Shown here: positions 9,794 to 57,278 of the stretch, one piece after another
Position numbering within the stretch: the stretch's first letter is position 1
Layout of the letters: each line of letters begins with the position of its first letter
Position numbers and translations under genes: made by a program
Origin: Aminobacter anthyllidis
GTDB taxonomy: Bacteria > Pseudomonadota > Alphaproteobacteria > Rhizobiales > Rhizobiaceae
Direction: 5' to 3'
Length of the DNA stretch: 64,000 nucleotides
Assembly (NCBI RefSeq): GCF_018555685.1
Contig: NZ_JAFLWW010000001.1
Span: 806,001 to 870,000 of the forward strand
The notes under the pieces: model-generated
What the model was told of the DNA's origin: nothing
Databases searched by the model: none
Seen by the model: only the letters and a program-made list of their open reading frames with translations

Positions 9794-11251
9794 TCAGGCA
9801 GGCCGCGACGATTTGTAGACGTTGACGCCGAGTTCGCGGATCTTCTTGCGCAGCGTGTTGCGGTTGAGTCCCAAAAGCTCGGCGGCCTTGATCTGGTTGC
9901 CGCGCGTCGCCGTCATCGAGGCCAGCACCAGCGGGTACTCGACCTCGGCGAGAATGCGCTGGTAGAGCCCGGGCGGCGGCAGGTCGCCGGCGAACATGGC
10001 GAAATAGCGCTGCAGGAAATGTTCGACCGCCTGGCCGACCGACAGGTCGTCGGGGATGAGATTGCCCCCCGGGACGACCGGCTGCTCGCCCGTCTTGAGT
10101 TCGGACTCGATGATGTCGGCCGAAATCTCGTCCTGCGGATAAAGTGCCGCCAGCCGGCGCACCAGGTTTTCCAGCTCGCGCACATTGCCCGGCCAGGGAT
10201 AGCGCTTCATCAGCTCTACGCCGCCCGAAGAGATGCGCTTGGCCTGCAGGCCTTCGCTGACGCCCTGTTTGAAGAAATGGCGGACAAGGTCCGGAACATC
10301 CTCCGAACGTTCGCGCAACGCTGGAAGGCGAAGCGGTACGACGTTGAGACGATAGAACAAATCCTCGCGGAACAGGCCTTGGTTGATCAGCGTGCGCAGG
10401 TCCTTGTTGGTGGCCGCGACGATGCGAACGTCAGTCTTGATCGGGGTGCGGCCGCCGACGGTGGTGTACTCGCCCTGCTGCAGCACGCGCAGCAGCCTGG
10501 TCTGTGCTTCCATCGGCATGTCGCCGATCTCGTCGAGAAACAGCGTGCCGCCATCGGCCTGCTCGAACCGGCCGGTGGAGCGGTTCTGCGCCCCGGTGAA
10601 GGCACCCTTCTCGTGGCCGAACAGCTCGGATTCGATGAGATCGCGTGGAATGGCGGCCATGTTGATCGCCACGAACGGTCCGTTGCGGCGGCGGCCATAT
10701 TCGTGGAGCGCGCGCGCAACCAGTTCCTTGCCGGTGCCCGATTCGCCCGAAATCATGACGGTGAGGTCCGTCTGCATCATGCGGGCGAGCATGCGGTAGA
10801 TGTCCTGCATCGCCGCCGAGCGGCCGACCAGCGGCATGGCGTCAGGCTGGTCGTCTTGGCGCTGGTCGCTCTTCGGCCGCCGCGGCTCGGAGAGCGCGCG
10901 GTTGACGATGCTGAGCAGTTCGGTGAGATCGAACGGCTTGGGCAGATATTCGTAGGCGCCGGTCTCCGACGCGCGGATCGCGGTCATGAAGGTGTTCTGC
11001 GCGCTCATGACGATGACCGGCAGTTCGGGCCGCGCCTTCTTGATTCGCGGCAGCATGTCGAAGGCGTTTTCGTCGGGCATCACCACGTCGGTGATGACAA
11101 GGTCACCCTCACCGGCGGCCACCCAGCGCCACAGCGTCGCGGCGTTGGAGGTCACGCGGACCTCATGGCCCATGCGCGACAGCGCCTGGTTGAGCACGGT
11201 GCGGATCGCCGCATCGTCGTCGGCGACAAGGATGTTTCCGCGCACGCTCAT
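9794..11251 (-). CDS. ntrC: Nitrogen regulator NtrC (sigma-54 activator)
   Basis: NtrC activates sigma-54 promoters for nitrogen scavenging (for example glnII, amtB/glnK) when phosphorylated by NtrB. The 485 residues hold a receiver domain (Asp55 in VITDVVMPD), an AAA+ domain with Walker A GESGTGKE, an intact sigma-54 loop GAFTGA, Walker [13 protein letters not shown], and a C-terminal Fis helix-turn-helix ([17 protein letters not shown]). The ATG at 11249-11251 overlaps the ntrB stop by four bases. A longer frame reaching 11350 lies inside ntrB and is not credible. Confidence 0.97.
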
Positions 11252-12390
11252 CGATGGGCTCCTTCGCTGTCGTCGTCGAGATGCACGGGCAATTCCTTCC
11301 AGGCCGGCATCAGGATCCGGAAGGTGGTGCCGCGCGGCGTCGAATCGCACTCGATCACCCCGCCATGGTCGCCGACGATCTTGGCGACGAGCGCGAGGCC
11401 GAGACCCGAGCCGTTGGGCTTGGTGGTGATGAAAGGGTCGAACAGGATCGGCAGGATGTCTTCCGACACGCCCGAGCCGTTGTCGTGCACGCAGAATTCC
11501 AGCGGCAGCGAGACACGATCCTGGGTGCCCGGGATCGACATGCGGATGCCGGGCTTGAAGGCGGTCGAAAGGGTGATTTCGCCGTGCGGGTCATGGCCGA
11601 TGGCCTCGGCGGCGTTCTTGACCAGGTTGAGGAAGACCTGGATCAGCTGGTCGCGATTGGCATAGACCGGTGGCAGCGATGGATCGTAATCCTCCAGGAT
11701 CTTGATTCCATTGGCAAAGCCGTTCCTGGCCAGTGCCTTCACATGGTCGAGCACGACGTGGATGTTGACCGGATAGCGGTCGATCGGCCGCTCGTCGGAA
11801 AACACCTCCATGCGGTCGACAAGCGAAACGATGCGGTCGGTTTCATCGATGATCAGCCGGGTCAGCGAACGATCCTCGTCGGAGGCATTCAGCTCCAGCA
11901 GTTGTGCAGCGCCCCTGATACCCGACAGCGGGTTCTTGATCTCATGCGCCAGCATGGCAGCCAGGCCGGTGACCGAGCGCGCCGCACCGCGGTGCGTCAT
12001 CTGACGGTCGATCTTGTCGGCCATCGAGCGTTCCTGGAACATCACCACCACCGAACCCGGCAGCTCGGACGCGGGGGCGACGTAGAGATCGACCATCTTC
12101 TCGATGCCGAGCCGGGGCGAAGAAACGTCGACCCGGTACTCGTTGACAGGCGTGTTGCGTGCGCGCACCTGCTCGACCAGTTGCAGGATGGGACTGCCAA
12201 AGGGCACGAAACGCGACAGCTCGCTGCGCGCCAGCATGGCGGCGCTGGAGCGGAAAAAGTCCTCGGCGTCGGCATTGGCGAAAGTGATGAAGTTATCAGG
12301 CCCGATCATGATGACGGGGCGGCGGATCGTGTTGAGCACGATCTGCGCGGCATCGACCGGTTGAGATGTCGGCGCTCGGTCGAAACTCAT
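11248..12390 (-). CDS. ntrB: Nitrogen sensor histidine kinase NtrB
   Basis: Cytosolic kinase/phosphatase for NtrC, controlled in other bacteria by PII proteins (GlnB/GlnK). The 380 residues contain an N-terminal PAS domain (about 20-120), a HisKA box [14 protein letters not shown] with the phospho-His near residue 148, and a HATPase domain with [10 protein letters not shown] (N box) and GSGLGLALV (G box). No transmembrane segment is visible, as expected. Its start overlaps the dusB stop by four bases and its stop overlaps the ntrC start, so dusB-ntrB-ntrC are coupled. Confidence 0.97.
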
Positions 12391-13415
12391 GCCGCATTCC
12401 TCTCAAAGGCACTTTCGCCGAAAGCCGTAAGCGCTTCGCGCAATGAAGAAATCACCTGCTGCGGCTCAAACGATGTCAGCACTCGCCGGCGCAGTTCGTC
12501 CGGCAGCGCGGCGGTGTGGCGATCGAGATACCAGCCGAGATGCTTGCGCGCCTGGCGCAGCCCGCTCTCGATGCCGTAGAGCGCCAGCATGTCCTCGTAG
12601 TGGGCAACGACATAGTCGGCCATCTCCAGGGATGACCGGGGCACGCCTGTTGCAACGCTCTTGCCCGCGGCAGCGGCAATCGTGCCCGCGGTCCATGGCG
12701 CGCCGTAATGCGAGCGCCCCGCCATGACCGCGTCAGCGCCCGATTGTTCGAGGATCCCGGCTGCATCTTCAGCTGTTGCCACATCGCCATTGGCGACGAC
12801 GGGAATGCTGACCGCCTGCTTGACGCGCGCAATGGCGCGCCAGTCGGCCTTGCCCTGATAAAACTGGCAGCGCGTGCGCCCGTGCACGGTTACCATCCTG
12901 ACGCCGGCCTGCTCGGCGCGCCGGGCCAGTTCAGGCGCATTGAGCACGTCATCGTCCCAGCCGAGACGCATCTTGAGGGTCACGGGTACTTCAACTGATC
13001 CAACGACGGCATCGATCAGGGTCAGCGCGTAGTCGAGGTCACGCATCAGCGCAGAGCCGGCATAGCCGCCCGTCACCTTCTTGGCCGGGCAGCCCATATT
13101 GATATCGATTACATCGGCGCCTTCGCCAACGGCGATTCGCGCCGCTTCGGCCATGTGTGCGGCTTCGCGGCCGGCCAGTTGCACCATGTGCACCGGCAGG
13201 CCGGAATGGCGGATGCGGAAGCCGCTCGAGCCACGCCCCTTGGCGAGTTCGCCGCTCGCAACCATCTCCGACACGACGAGGCCGGCGCCATGGGCATGAG
13301 CGCGCGTGCGAAAAGCCTCGTCGGTGACACCCGACATCGGCGCCAGGAACACCCGATTGCGGATCGTCACATCGCCGATCGAAAGCGGCTCACCGAGTTT
13401 TTCCAGATCAGTCAT
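12387..13415 (-). CDS. dusB: tRNA-dihydrouridine synthase DusB (NifR3)
   Basis: FMN enzyme reducing uridines in the tRNA D-loop. The 342-residue protein has the Dus barrel: [14 protein letters not shown] near the start, NMGCPAKKV with the catalytic Cys near residue 98, TVHGRTR, and the phosphate-binding VANGD. In Rhodobacter and rhizobia this gene (nifR3/orf1) heads the ntrBC operon. The ATG at 13413-13415 ([11 protein letters not shown]) fits the family; an upstream frame from 13478 would run into the regulatory palindrome and is rejected. Confidence 0.95.
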
Positions 13416-13442
13416 GCACAAAAACAAAGCACCATTCTCTGC

Positions 13443-13477
13443 TGCACAATGAGTAGCCACGATTGGCTCATTGTGCA
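13443..13477. promoter_or_regulatory. 35-base palindrome in the dusB-ntrBC / ispDF divergent region
   Basis: TGCACAATGAG (13443-13453) and CTCATTGTGCA (13467-13477) are perfect 11-base inverted arms around 13 bases. Each outer end contains GCAC/GTGC, the half-site of NtrC operators, and further GCAC copies occur at 13416 and 13429. It lies 28 bases upstream of the dusB ATG and 79 bases upstream of ispDF. NtrC autorepression of the orf1-ntrBC promoter is known in Rhizobium, so an operator role is plausible but unproven; the 17-base NtrC spacing is not matched. Confidence 0.5.
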
Positions 13478-13555
13478 ACTGCGAAATGACAGCCGAATGC
13501 GGCGCTTTCTGGATTCCTCTAGCCTTCCGCAGGCCTCGCGGCTAAGCCTCTGCTC

Positions 13556-14779
13556 ATGAATCCGAAGCCGTTGCCGAACCAGCAGAATTCGAAGGTCGCC
13601 GTCGTGGTCGTGGCGGCCGGGCGCGGCGAGCGTGCAGGACAGGCTGACGGTCCGAAGCAGTATCGCCGGATCGGCGGCAAGGCGGTGATCTGGCACACGC
13701 TGAAGGCATTTCTCGACCATCCGCGGGTCGGACCGATCGCCGTCGCCATCCACGCCGACGACGGCGAGCTTTTCGCAGCGGCCGCCGGCGAATTGGCCTC
13801 GCGTGTCACTACAGTCGTGGGCGGCGCCACGCGACAGGATTCGACGCGCTTTGCGCTGATCGCATTGCAGGAAGCCAGGCCGCAGGCTGTGCTGATCCAT
13901 GACGGGGTCCGTCCGTTCATCGGCCCCGAGGTCATCGACCGGGCCATAGCAGGCATCGACGCCAGCCACGGATCGCTGCCGTCGCTGCCGGTGTCCGACA
14001 CGCTCAAGAAAGAAGCCTTCGACCGCACCGTGGCCGAAACCGTGCCGCGCGCGGGCCTGCATTCGGCGCAAACGCCGCAAGGCTTTCCGTTCGAGCCGAT
14101 CTTTTCCGCGCACCAGCGGGCCTTCGAGGCCGGCCGCAGCGACTTCACCGACGATTCCGCCATTGCCGAATGGGCCGGCATCCCGGTGCGCCTGGTGCTC
14201 GGCTCGCCCGACAACGTCAAACTCACCTGGGCTAAGGACATCGCCATGGCCGACCAGCGCCTTTCTGGCCAAGCAATCAGCTTTCCCGACGTCCGCACCG
14301 GCAACGGCTACGACGTGCACTCGTTTGAGCTAGGCGATCACGTCTGGCTGTGCGGCGTGAAGATCGCCCACTCCAAGAAGCTGAATGGCCATTCCGACGC
14401 TGATGTCGGACTGCACGCGCTGACCGACGCGCTGCTGGCCACCTGCGGCGCCGGCGACATCGGCACGCATTTCCCGCCATCCGACCCGCAGTGGAAGGGC
14501 GCTGCCTCGCGCCAGTTCGTCGAGCACGCTGCAAAGATCGTTCGTGGGCGTGGCGGGCGCATCGCCAATGCCGACATCACGCTGATCTGCGAGGCGCCGA
14601 AGGTCGGACCGCATCGCGAGGCGATGACCGCCGAACTGGCCGACATGCTGCGCATCGCCCCCGAGCGCATCTCGATCAAGGCGACGACCAACGAGAAGCT
14701 GGGCTTCATTGGGCGCGAGGAAGGCATCGCGGCGATCGCAACCGCAAGCGTGGTCTATCCCGGAGAGTTGCCGGAATGA
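13556..14779 (+). CDS. ispDF: Bifunctional IspD/IspF (MEP isoprenoid pathway)
   Basis: Two steps of isoprenoid precursor synthesis on one chain. The IspD half (about 12-235) transfers CMP to MEP and carries [17 protein letters not shown] near its start. The IspF half (about 245-405) makes the cyclic diphosphate and shows the zinc ligands in GYDVHSFE and the later [19 protein letters not shown]. Fusion of the two is common in alphaproteobacteria; IspE is not part of it. The 407-residue length fits. The stop overlaps the cinA start as ATGA. Confidence 0.97.
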
Positions 14780-45908: not shown

Positions 45909-45970
45909 GCATTGCTACGACGCGCGTCCTCTCGGGCGCGCGGCCGCAGCTCGAAGCTGCAAACCACTTG

Positions 45971-46009
45971 AAAAACACCCGCCAGGCCATTGCCTTGGCG
46001 GGTGTTTTT
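45971..46009. terminator. Bidirectional terminator between gltA and lpxB
   Basis: AAAAACACCCGCCA (45971-45984) and TGGCGGGTGTTTTT (45996-46009) are perfect 14-base arms. Five Ts end the stem on the plus strand and, because the arm starts with five As, the same holds on the minus strand. It terminates gltA and, on the other strand, lpxB, whose stop codon lies inside the arm. Confidence 0.92.
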
Positions 46010-47172
46010 CATTTCACAATGTGTTTGAGAACCGCTTCCGCTGCAATCTCGCCGGACGGGCGTTCAGTCGCCATGCGCCTGACGATTTCGGCGAAGCCGT
46101 CCTTTTGCCAGCGGCGAAGGCCGCTGTCTTCGAAGAGGCCCTCGATAAAGCGCGCCATCGATTGCGGGCGCACATACTCGTTATAGGTTTCCTGCACGAC
46201 CAGCCGGTCAGCGATCAGGTTGGGCAGCGCTGCACTCCACACTGTGACCAGGCGCTGGATCATTCGCGCAAGGGTGTCGAGCTTGTAGGACGACAGCATC
46301 GGCACGCCGGCAAGCGCGAGTTCGAGCGACACCGTTCCAGAGGCGATCAAAGCAGCATCGGCTTCACCGAATGCCTGCCACTTGTGCTGCGGATCGAGAA
46401 TGATCTCAGGCTTTTGCGGCCAACCGGAGACGGCCTCTTCGACCAGGCTGGCGACATGCGGCACCGTCGGCAAAAGCAGGCGCAAACGATGACCGCGCGC
46501 GCGCAGGATCGAAACAGTCTCGCCGAACGGGCCGATGAGACTGCGCACCTCACTGCGGCGCGACCCTGGCAGCAGCAGAAGCGTCTTCTCGCGGTCAGGC
46601 GCCGTTGCAGCTTTGCCCTCCTGCATCGCCGCAGCAATCGCGATGCCCGGATCGGTCGTCAGGCGATGACCGACGAAGGTGCCGTGCGGGCCGTCCAGGC
46701 GCGCAAGTTCGGCCGGCTCGAACGGCAGGATGCAGAACACTTCGTCGACATGTGGCTTCATCGCCTTGGCCCGGCCCGGCCGCCAGGCCCAGACACTCGG
46801 GCAGATATAGTGGACGATAGGGATCGTTGGATCGAGGGCCCTCACCTTCTTTGCGACGCGCAGCGAAAAGTCAGGGCTGTCGATGGTGATGAGGCAGTCC
46901 GGCTTTTCTGCCGCCACGAAACTTGCAGTCTGGCCGATCCGCCTGATCAGGCGCGGCAGGTCGCGTACGATCGCCGTCAGCCCCATCAATGCAATCTCGC
47001 CGGCGTCGAACAACGGCGAAAGGCCGAGTTCCTGCAGATGGCGACCACCGGTGCCGACAAGCCTGACCTCGCGCCCGCTCAGGCGTTGCAGCGCCTGCAC
47101 GAGATCAGCGCCCAGCAGGTCACCCGACTCCTCGCCCGCGACGATGGCAATCTTGAGCGGCGGCAGGGTCAT
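46009..47172 (-). CDS. lpxB: Lipid-A-disaccharide synthase
   Basis: GT-B glycosyltransferase joining UDP-diacylglucosamine and lipid X to the lipid A disaccharide at the inner face of the inner membrane. The 387 residues contain KIAIVAGEESGDLLGADL (about 6-23), YICPSVWAWRPGRAKAM (about 118-134) and the C-terminal ASGTVSLELALAGVPMLSSYK (about 295-315). The ATG at 47170-47172 overlaps the lpxI stop by four bases. It is the last gene of the envelope block, ending inside the terminator. Confidence 0.97.
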   Translation of the reverse strand: MTLPPLKIAIVAGEESGDLLGADLVQALQRLSGREVRLVGTGGRHLQELGLSPLFDAGEIALMGLTAIVRDLPRLIRRIGQTASFVAAEKPDCLITIDSPDFSLRVAKKVRALDPTIPIVHYICPSVWAWRPGRAKAMKPHVDEVFCILPFEPAELARLDGPHGTFVGHRLTTDPGIAIAAAMQEGKAATAPDREKTLLLLPGSRRSEVRSLIGPFGETVSILRARGHRLRLLLPTVPHVASLVEEAVSGWPQKPEIILDPQHKWQAFGEADAALIASGTVSLELALAGVPMLSSYKLDTLARMIQRLVTVWSAALPNLIADRLVVQETYNEYVRPQSMARFIEGLFEDSGLRRWQKDGFAEIVRRMATERPSGEIAAEAVLKHIVK

Positions 47173-57244: not shown

Positions 57245-57278
57245 CGAAGGGCGCCGCGATGTCACGCGGCGCCCTTCG
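57245..57278. terminator. Perfect hairpin between tsf and pyrH
   Basis: CGAAGGGCGCCGCG (57245-57258) and CGCGGCGCCCTTCG (57265-57278) are 14-base perfect arms with a 6-base loop. No T-run follows on either strand. It may separate rpsB-tsf transcripts from the pyrH-frr part, or stabilise the tsf 3' end. Confidence 0.6.

Follow-up and report, generated by a model that had tools for sequence, protein, structure and literature searches.

What does a 35-base palindrome do at the head of the dusB-ntrBC operon of Aminobacter anthyllidis, and which regulator, if any, reads it? The palindrome, TGCACAATGAG-N13-CTCATTGTGCA, lies at positions 13443-13477 of the window, by which we mean the whole stretch of 64,000 nucleotides that was analyzed. 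Its arms pair with 0 mismatches, exactly where a first-pass annotation had placed them, and it is central to the gap between the divergent genes dusB and ispDF, for which the reported length of 140 bp is also correct (dusB ATG at 13415 on the minus strand, ispDF ATG at 13556). On comparative evidence, we propose with good confidence that the region acts as an autorepression switch of dusB-ntrBC, operated by NtrC through a tandem operator laid over the promoter. In suggesting NtrC and autorepression, the first-pass annotation followed the right lead; the palindrome as a unit, however, is likely not the operator, because a strong, conserved NtrC-type site (O2, 13415-13431) falls outside it, on the dusB start codon.

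The minus strand carries a dusB-ntrB-ntrC operon that includes the gene for NtrC itself. The first gene, dusB (12390-13415), scores over its curated cut-off (TIGR00737, 329.7 bits against 293.3), as does ntrC (9794-11257, with the start codon chosen inside the listed frame; TIGR01818, 702.9 bits against 558.6), which encodes the proposed repressor, a protein whose C-terminal part is Fis-like. In place between the two is ntrB (11248-12390), whose best NCBIfam match, NR(II), reaches 183.3 bits and so stays under the curated 240. On the plus strand, ispDF occupies 13556-14779 (NF006899, 522.4 bits; cut-off, 417). No tRNA was found in the window. A seven-codon reading frame, ATGGTGCTTTGTTTTTGTGCATGA at 13412-13435, overlaps the dusB start via ATGA; judged by eye, it is kept neither in several other genera nor in one locus of the genus (L036), and it therefore probably arose by chance.

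The palindrome is a singular object in its own genome. The window holds no other match even when up to 3 mismatches are allowed, 100 shuffles gave 0 matches, and in the genome of 6,714,122 bases (6.7 Mb) it occurs as a single copy, also with 3 mismatches in the ten-base arms. A search of a plasmid collection returned no match. Palindromes of such size are common enough in the DNA of the window to be called not rare: inverted repeats with perfect arms of at least 11 bases and loops of at most 30 number 6, against a shuffle mean of 1.05 and maximum of 4. Two inverted repeats elsewhere in the window, at 45969-46011 and 57245-57278, have longer perfect arms (at least 13) than the palindrome. Within the palindrome, TGC and GCA stand 29 bp apart, compared with 11 bp in a single canonical NtrC dyad, and the earlier remark that the spacing is unlike that of a normal NtrC site was right.

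Comparison of 10 Aminobacter genomes answered whether the arms are lost in close relatives, a point that the first-pass annotation had raised. They are kept: 8 of the 10 genomes have perfect ten-base arms and the other 2 carry one mismatch, such that every genome retains 9 or all 10 of the inner-arm pairs. Only 2 of the 10 have the 11th pair as well, and the conserved arms are therefore 10 bp long. Two substitutions fall within the ten-base arms, one per genome, and both are uncompensated. All 11 columns of the dusB-proximal arm are invariant across the genus, as are 8/11 of the distal arm and 4/13 of the bases between them.

Outside the genus, the picture changes. Among 67 loci of other genera that carry the tandem site described below, only the outer TGC/GCA of the arms is general, and the arms of a locus pair with each other no better (mean, 4.07/11) than when partners are swapped (4.25; permutation p 0.94). 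The dyad symmetry of the palindrome is not the conserved object. The exact form with nine-base arms occurs in 19 stretches among 84,980 species genomes, of which 6 are in the genus and 13 in unrelated groups. The palindrome is thus a local elaboration.

The first-pass annotation had allowed for binding by another regulator. In one such reading, the whole palindrome would serve as operator for a dimeric or tetrameric, Aminobacter-specific protein that controls both dusB-ntrBC and ispDF. Such an operator would fit the near-perfect retention of the ten-base arms in 10/10 genomes of the genus around variable intervening bases, as well as the central position in the divergent gap. Nevertheless, we hold it unlikely: the palindrome is single copy, its symmetry beyond TGC/GCA is absent from the 67 loci of other genera, neither arm substitution is compensated, and the arms coincide with two elements of separate standing, the predicted -35 region and a dyad that we call O1. 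The palindrome itself is probably not the functional unit; we describe it as O1 and the -35 region superimposed, an arrangement specific to the genus and belonging to neither strand.

What is conserved widely is a pair of 17-bp dyads on the minus strand, 28 bp apart. O2, TGCTTTGTTTTTGTGCA at 13415-13431, is a TGC-N11-GCA dyad that ends on the first letter, A, of the dusB start codon ATG, and it is the probable main NtrC site; 16 of its 17 columns are invariant in the 10 genus genomes. O1, TGGCTACTCATTGTGCA at 13443-13459, is a dyad of the TGN-N11-GCA type (TGG-N11-GCA in the source sequence) that overlaps the predicted -10 box and transcription start, and it is probably a weaker NtrC site. Its invariant columns number 15/17, a conservation partly attributable to the -10 box. 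The dusB-proximal arm of the palindrome is contained in O1 and forms the better half of this weak dyad. Between the two sites lies an 11-bp linker (13432-13442) that is fixed in length and free in sequence, with 3/11 columns invariant in the genus.

The extent of this arrangement was assessed in 118 oriented dusB upstream regions, comprising 110 loci and 8 further genus loci, with 10 of the genus in all; ten of 121 genomes, which had distant or partial Dus matches only, were left out, as was G056. The tandem pattern (TGN-N11-GCA, 11 nt, TGC-N11-NCA) is present in 77 of the 118 loci (10 of the genus and 67 of other genera), whereas in 100 dinucleotide-shuffled sets it averaged 0.06 and never exceeded 1. 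Both spacings are sharply defined. Linker lengths of 11 occur in 77 loci and of 10 in 6, and any other length from 0 to 25 occurs in at most 4; likewise, TGC-N11-GCA is found in 88/118 loci, while other inner spacings from 5 to 17 give 3 to 11. The layout also reaches beyond the family: among the 28 best-scoring loci (26 families of the order) taken from 59 genomes of other families, the tandem occurs with a linker of 11 in 13/28 and with a linker of 10 in 3. In the same 28 best-scoring loci, TGC-N11-GCA occurs in 17/28 against a mean of 0.8 in a mononucleotide shuffle, a weaker control than the dinucleotide shuffle used for the tandem. In its own genome, the tandem pattern yields 11 matches on both strands, compared with 4 for a control pattern, and by eye only the match at dusB is AT-rich.

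The exact tandem is missing in 41/118 loci, and TGC-N11-GCA is missing in 30/118. In one group (L116, L118, L119, L122, and L124-L128), a TGC-N11-GCA dyad seen by eye farther upstream of dusB replaces the tandem, which is perhaps another solution to dusB control. Four loci with NtrC nearby have no TGN-N11-GCA in the scored stretch, and in one of these (L106), a TGC-N11-GCA noted by eye lies just beyond it. NtrC itself was sought in 27 chosen genomes. In G072, NtrC matches reach no more than 366 bits (cut-off, 558.6), and dusB has neither TGC-N11-GCA nor the tandem, but TGN-N11-GCA is present; the case is a weak one because it is a single usable genome and 30 of the 118 loci lack TGC-N11-GCA in any event. 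Seven small family genomes of 1.1-2.0 Mb (G005, G006, G044, G076, G091, G093, and G111) have only distant Dus matches and no NtrC above the cut-off, which suggests that dusB and ntrBC were lost together.

The evidence that these dyads are NtrC sites comes from their form and from where else the form recurs. TGC-N11-GCA is the rhizobial NtrC motif at activated and repressed promoters alike, with footprint and mutation data at S. meliloti PnfeR1, according to the available part of a study in that species (PMC10746234). A matrix trained on the O2 sites of other genera was scored on the window and the source genome. In the dusB promoter region, it picks out O2, which ranks 1 of 63,984 window positions with a score of 17.1 (next, 11.0); O1 scores 6.3 and ranks 23/63,984. 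In the source genome, the matrix also finds the motif upstream of glnB-glnA (TGCCGCATTTTTGTGCA, 13.0), glnK-amtB (TGCTTACATAATGTGCA, 15.5), and glnII (TGCTCAAAAAACAGGCA, 18.2), where the names AmtB and GSII come from inspecting the listed proteins by eye. The loci of four further glutamine-synthetase-like genes score at most 7.8, and additional matches at glnA, within the gene and behind it, score 10.4 and 12.2.

A second alternative concerns O2 more than the palindrome, and it holds that O2 and the leader TTTTTGTGCATG form a translation-start or RNA signal and not a protein site on DNA. Judged by eye, many genera have a leader that is constant in length and rich in U ahead of the start codon, which is what such a signal might look like. 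However, in 39 of the 77 tandem rows, no ATG overlaps the end of O2, so O2 is not a start-codon signal. Moreover, the motif recurs upstream of glnBA, glnK, and glnII, the group that includes L116 and L118 carries it farther upstream instead, and the one match from Rfam (E 0.38, far under the gathering score) lies outside the region. We consider this reading quite improbable.

If O1 and O2 are NtrC sites, what they would repress is a sigma-70-type promoter of dusB-ntrBC, predicted on the minus strand with a -35 box GTTGCA (13474-13479, partly in the distal palindrome arm) and, 17 bp away, a -10 box CTACTC (13451-13456). The call rests on conservation: TTG...CTA is kept at fixed spacing, with the three TTG columns matching in 75, 71, and 72 of the 77 tandem rows, TA in 77/77, and the preceding C or T in 75/77; in the genus, 6/6 columns of the -35 box are invariant. 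The boxes share their spacing with the rhizobial promoter consensus CTTGAC-N17-CTATAT, as given in the accessible portion of PMC2573895. Taken as a single sequence, the promoter matches at 6/12 positions, fewer than the 7/12 reached elsewhere on its strand. Scanning with the E. coli hexamers for a generic sigma-70 promoter found none. Each promoter box overlaps one palindrome arm.

Just upstream of the -35 box on the minus strand is a conserved block, TGTCATTTCGCAGT at 13478-13491 (CTGTCATTTCGCAGT at 13478-13492), in which 14/14 columns are invariant across the 10 genus genomes. It includes CTGTCAT, a perfect PhoB half-box. A full PhoB box has the form CTGTCAT-N4-CTGTCAT in the available text of PMC2573895, and this candidate was rejected, the first half being perfect and the second half reading CAGTTGC.

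In the model that we favor, RNA polymerase would read into dusB from the sigma-70 promoter inside the palindrome, NtrC dimers would sit on O2, the strong site, which extends from the leader as far as the start codon, and NtrC would also occupy O1, the weaker site, over the -10 box and +1. Held 28 bp apart, a step that does not correspond to an integral number of helical turns, the two sites might be bound jointly, and once occupied, they would exclude RNA polymerase and keep NtrBC levels in bounds. From the sequence, its conservation, the fixed spacing, and the motif shared with the upstream regions of glnBA, glnK, and glnII, we infer the binding of NtrC, the order in which the sites are occupied, repression, and the position of the start site, predicted at about 13443-13445. 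The palindrome would then have arisen in Aminobacter when the sequence surrounding the -35 box turned into a mirror copy of one half-site of O1.

That mirror copy raises the question of whether Aminobacter has a third point of contact. The heptamer TGCACAA is centered at 13418 in O2 and at 13446 in O1, and a third (13471-13477, assigned to neither strand; TTGTGCA on the plus strand) is centered at 13474, another 28 bp on and inverted. It is conceivable, though doubtful, that NtrC forms a three-point array here that would cover the start codon, the -10 box and +1, and the -35 box at once. At the third place, TGCACAA is found in 4/34 TTGC-type loci of other genera, where 0.66 is expected from column frequencies if relatedness is ignored. 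Were the array real, the order-wide 28-bp step would mark an NtrC assembly dedicated to repression and unlike the enhancer arrangement that activates, and dusB-ntrBC might be coupled to ispDF through the inverted third point.

On the ispDF side, the effect that the first-pass annotation had expected finds no support; promoter-like boxes belonging to ispDF itself stand about 40 bp past the palindrome. Its predicted promoter on the plus strand, CTAGCC-N17-CTAAGC at 13519-13547, ends 8 nt before the ATG, and the mRNA, with a start predicted at about 13553-13556, may therefore be leaderless. This form (CTGG.. or CTAGCC, N17, CTA, and ATG or GTG within 16 nt) is seen in 30/117 loci (10 from the genus), against a mean of 0.84 and a maximum of 4 under a mononucleotide shuffle, which is weaker than the dinucleotide control; one locus (L018) that stops at a contig end is counted among the 118 and left out of these 117. 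The distance from the dusB anchor to the start of the -35 box is 99-105 bp in 27 of these 30 loci. The predicted ispDF promoter has the palindrome upstream of it, with no overlap between the two, and an action of the palindrome region on ispDF is possible.

Finally, that the palindrome works as a folded hairpin or cruciform, in RNA or DNA, is very improbable: the single strand, folded as DNA, does better than 200/200 shuffles (z -5.1), but perfect arms by themselves account for this score, the pairing is lost outside the genus, and with the predicted start at the palindrome edge, the dusB mRNA would not include both arms.

How does this autorepression switch compare with known systems? The closest are the rhizobial dusB (ORF1/nifR3)-ntrBC operons, such as S. 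meliloti PdusB and R. etli ORF1-ntrBC, which share the gene order, a motif of the TGC-N11-GCA type, and NtrC encoded in the operon (PMC10746234, available part). In S. meliloti, NtrC binds PdusB in an electrophoretic mobility shift assay (EMSA), and the operon is described as negatively autoregulated, as reported in the same portion of that paper. There, PdusB transcription increases in nitrogen-poor media (PMC10746234), and repression would thus be at most partial and no simple shut-off. Autorepression is already known in these relatives; the new detail is the fixed tandem geometry of O1 and O2 across many genera, together with a palindrome found at dusB only in Aminobacter. No description of a fixed tandem appeared in the literature searched, in the parts available, and older data for R. 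etli or R. leguminosarum may already show two sites. In Caulobacter, NtrC likewise represses its own operon, according to the available part of PMC10274813; the Caulobacter protein is without the GAFTGA loop (PMC10274813), and the likeness is at the level of control.

Within the source genome, the NtrC enhancer sites of glnBA, glnK-amtB, and glnII share the 17-bp motif with dusB. Each of these sites is near a sigma-54-like box (at most 2 mismatches, with a pattern that also yields scattered chance matches), whereas the dusB region (13381-13570, both strands) contains no -24/-12 box of the form TGGCAC-N4-5-TTGC with up to 3 mismatches. A motif that neighbors sigma-54-like boxes at three nitrogen loci and overlies a sigma-70-type promoter at dusB would fit activation at the former and repression at the latter. 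NtrC is known mainly as an activator, and a repressing operator whose layout is fixed across many families within an order offers a clear, testable model for the two roles of one regulator.
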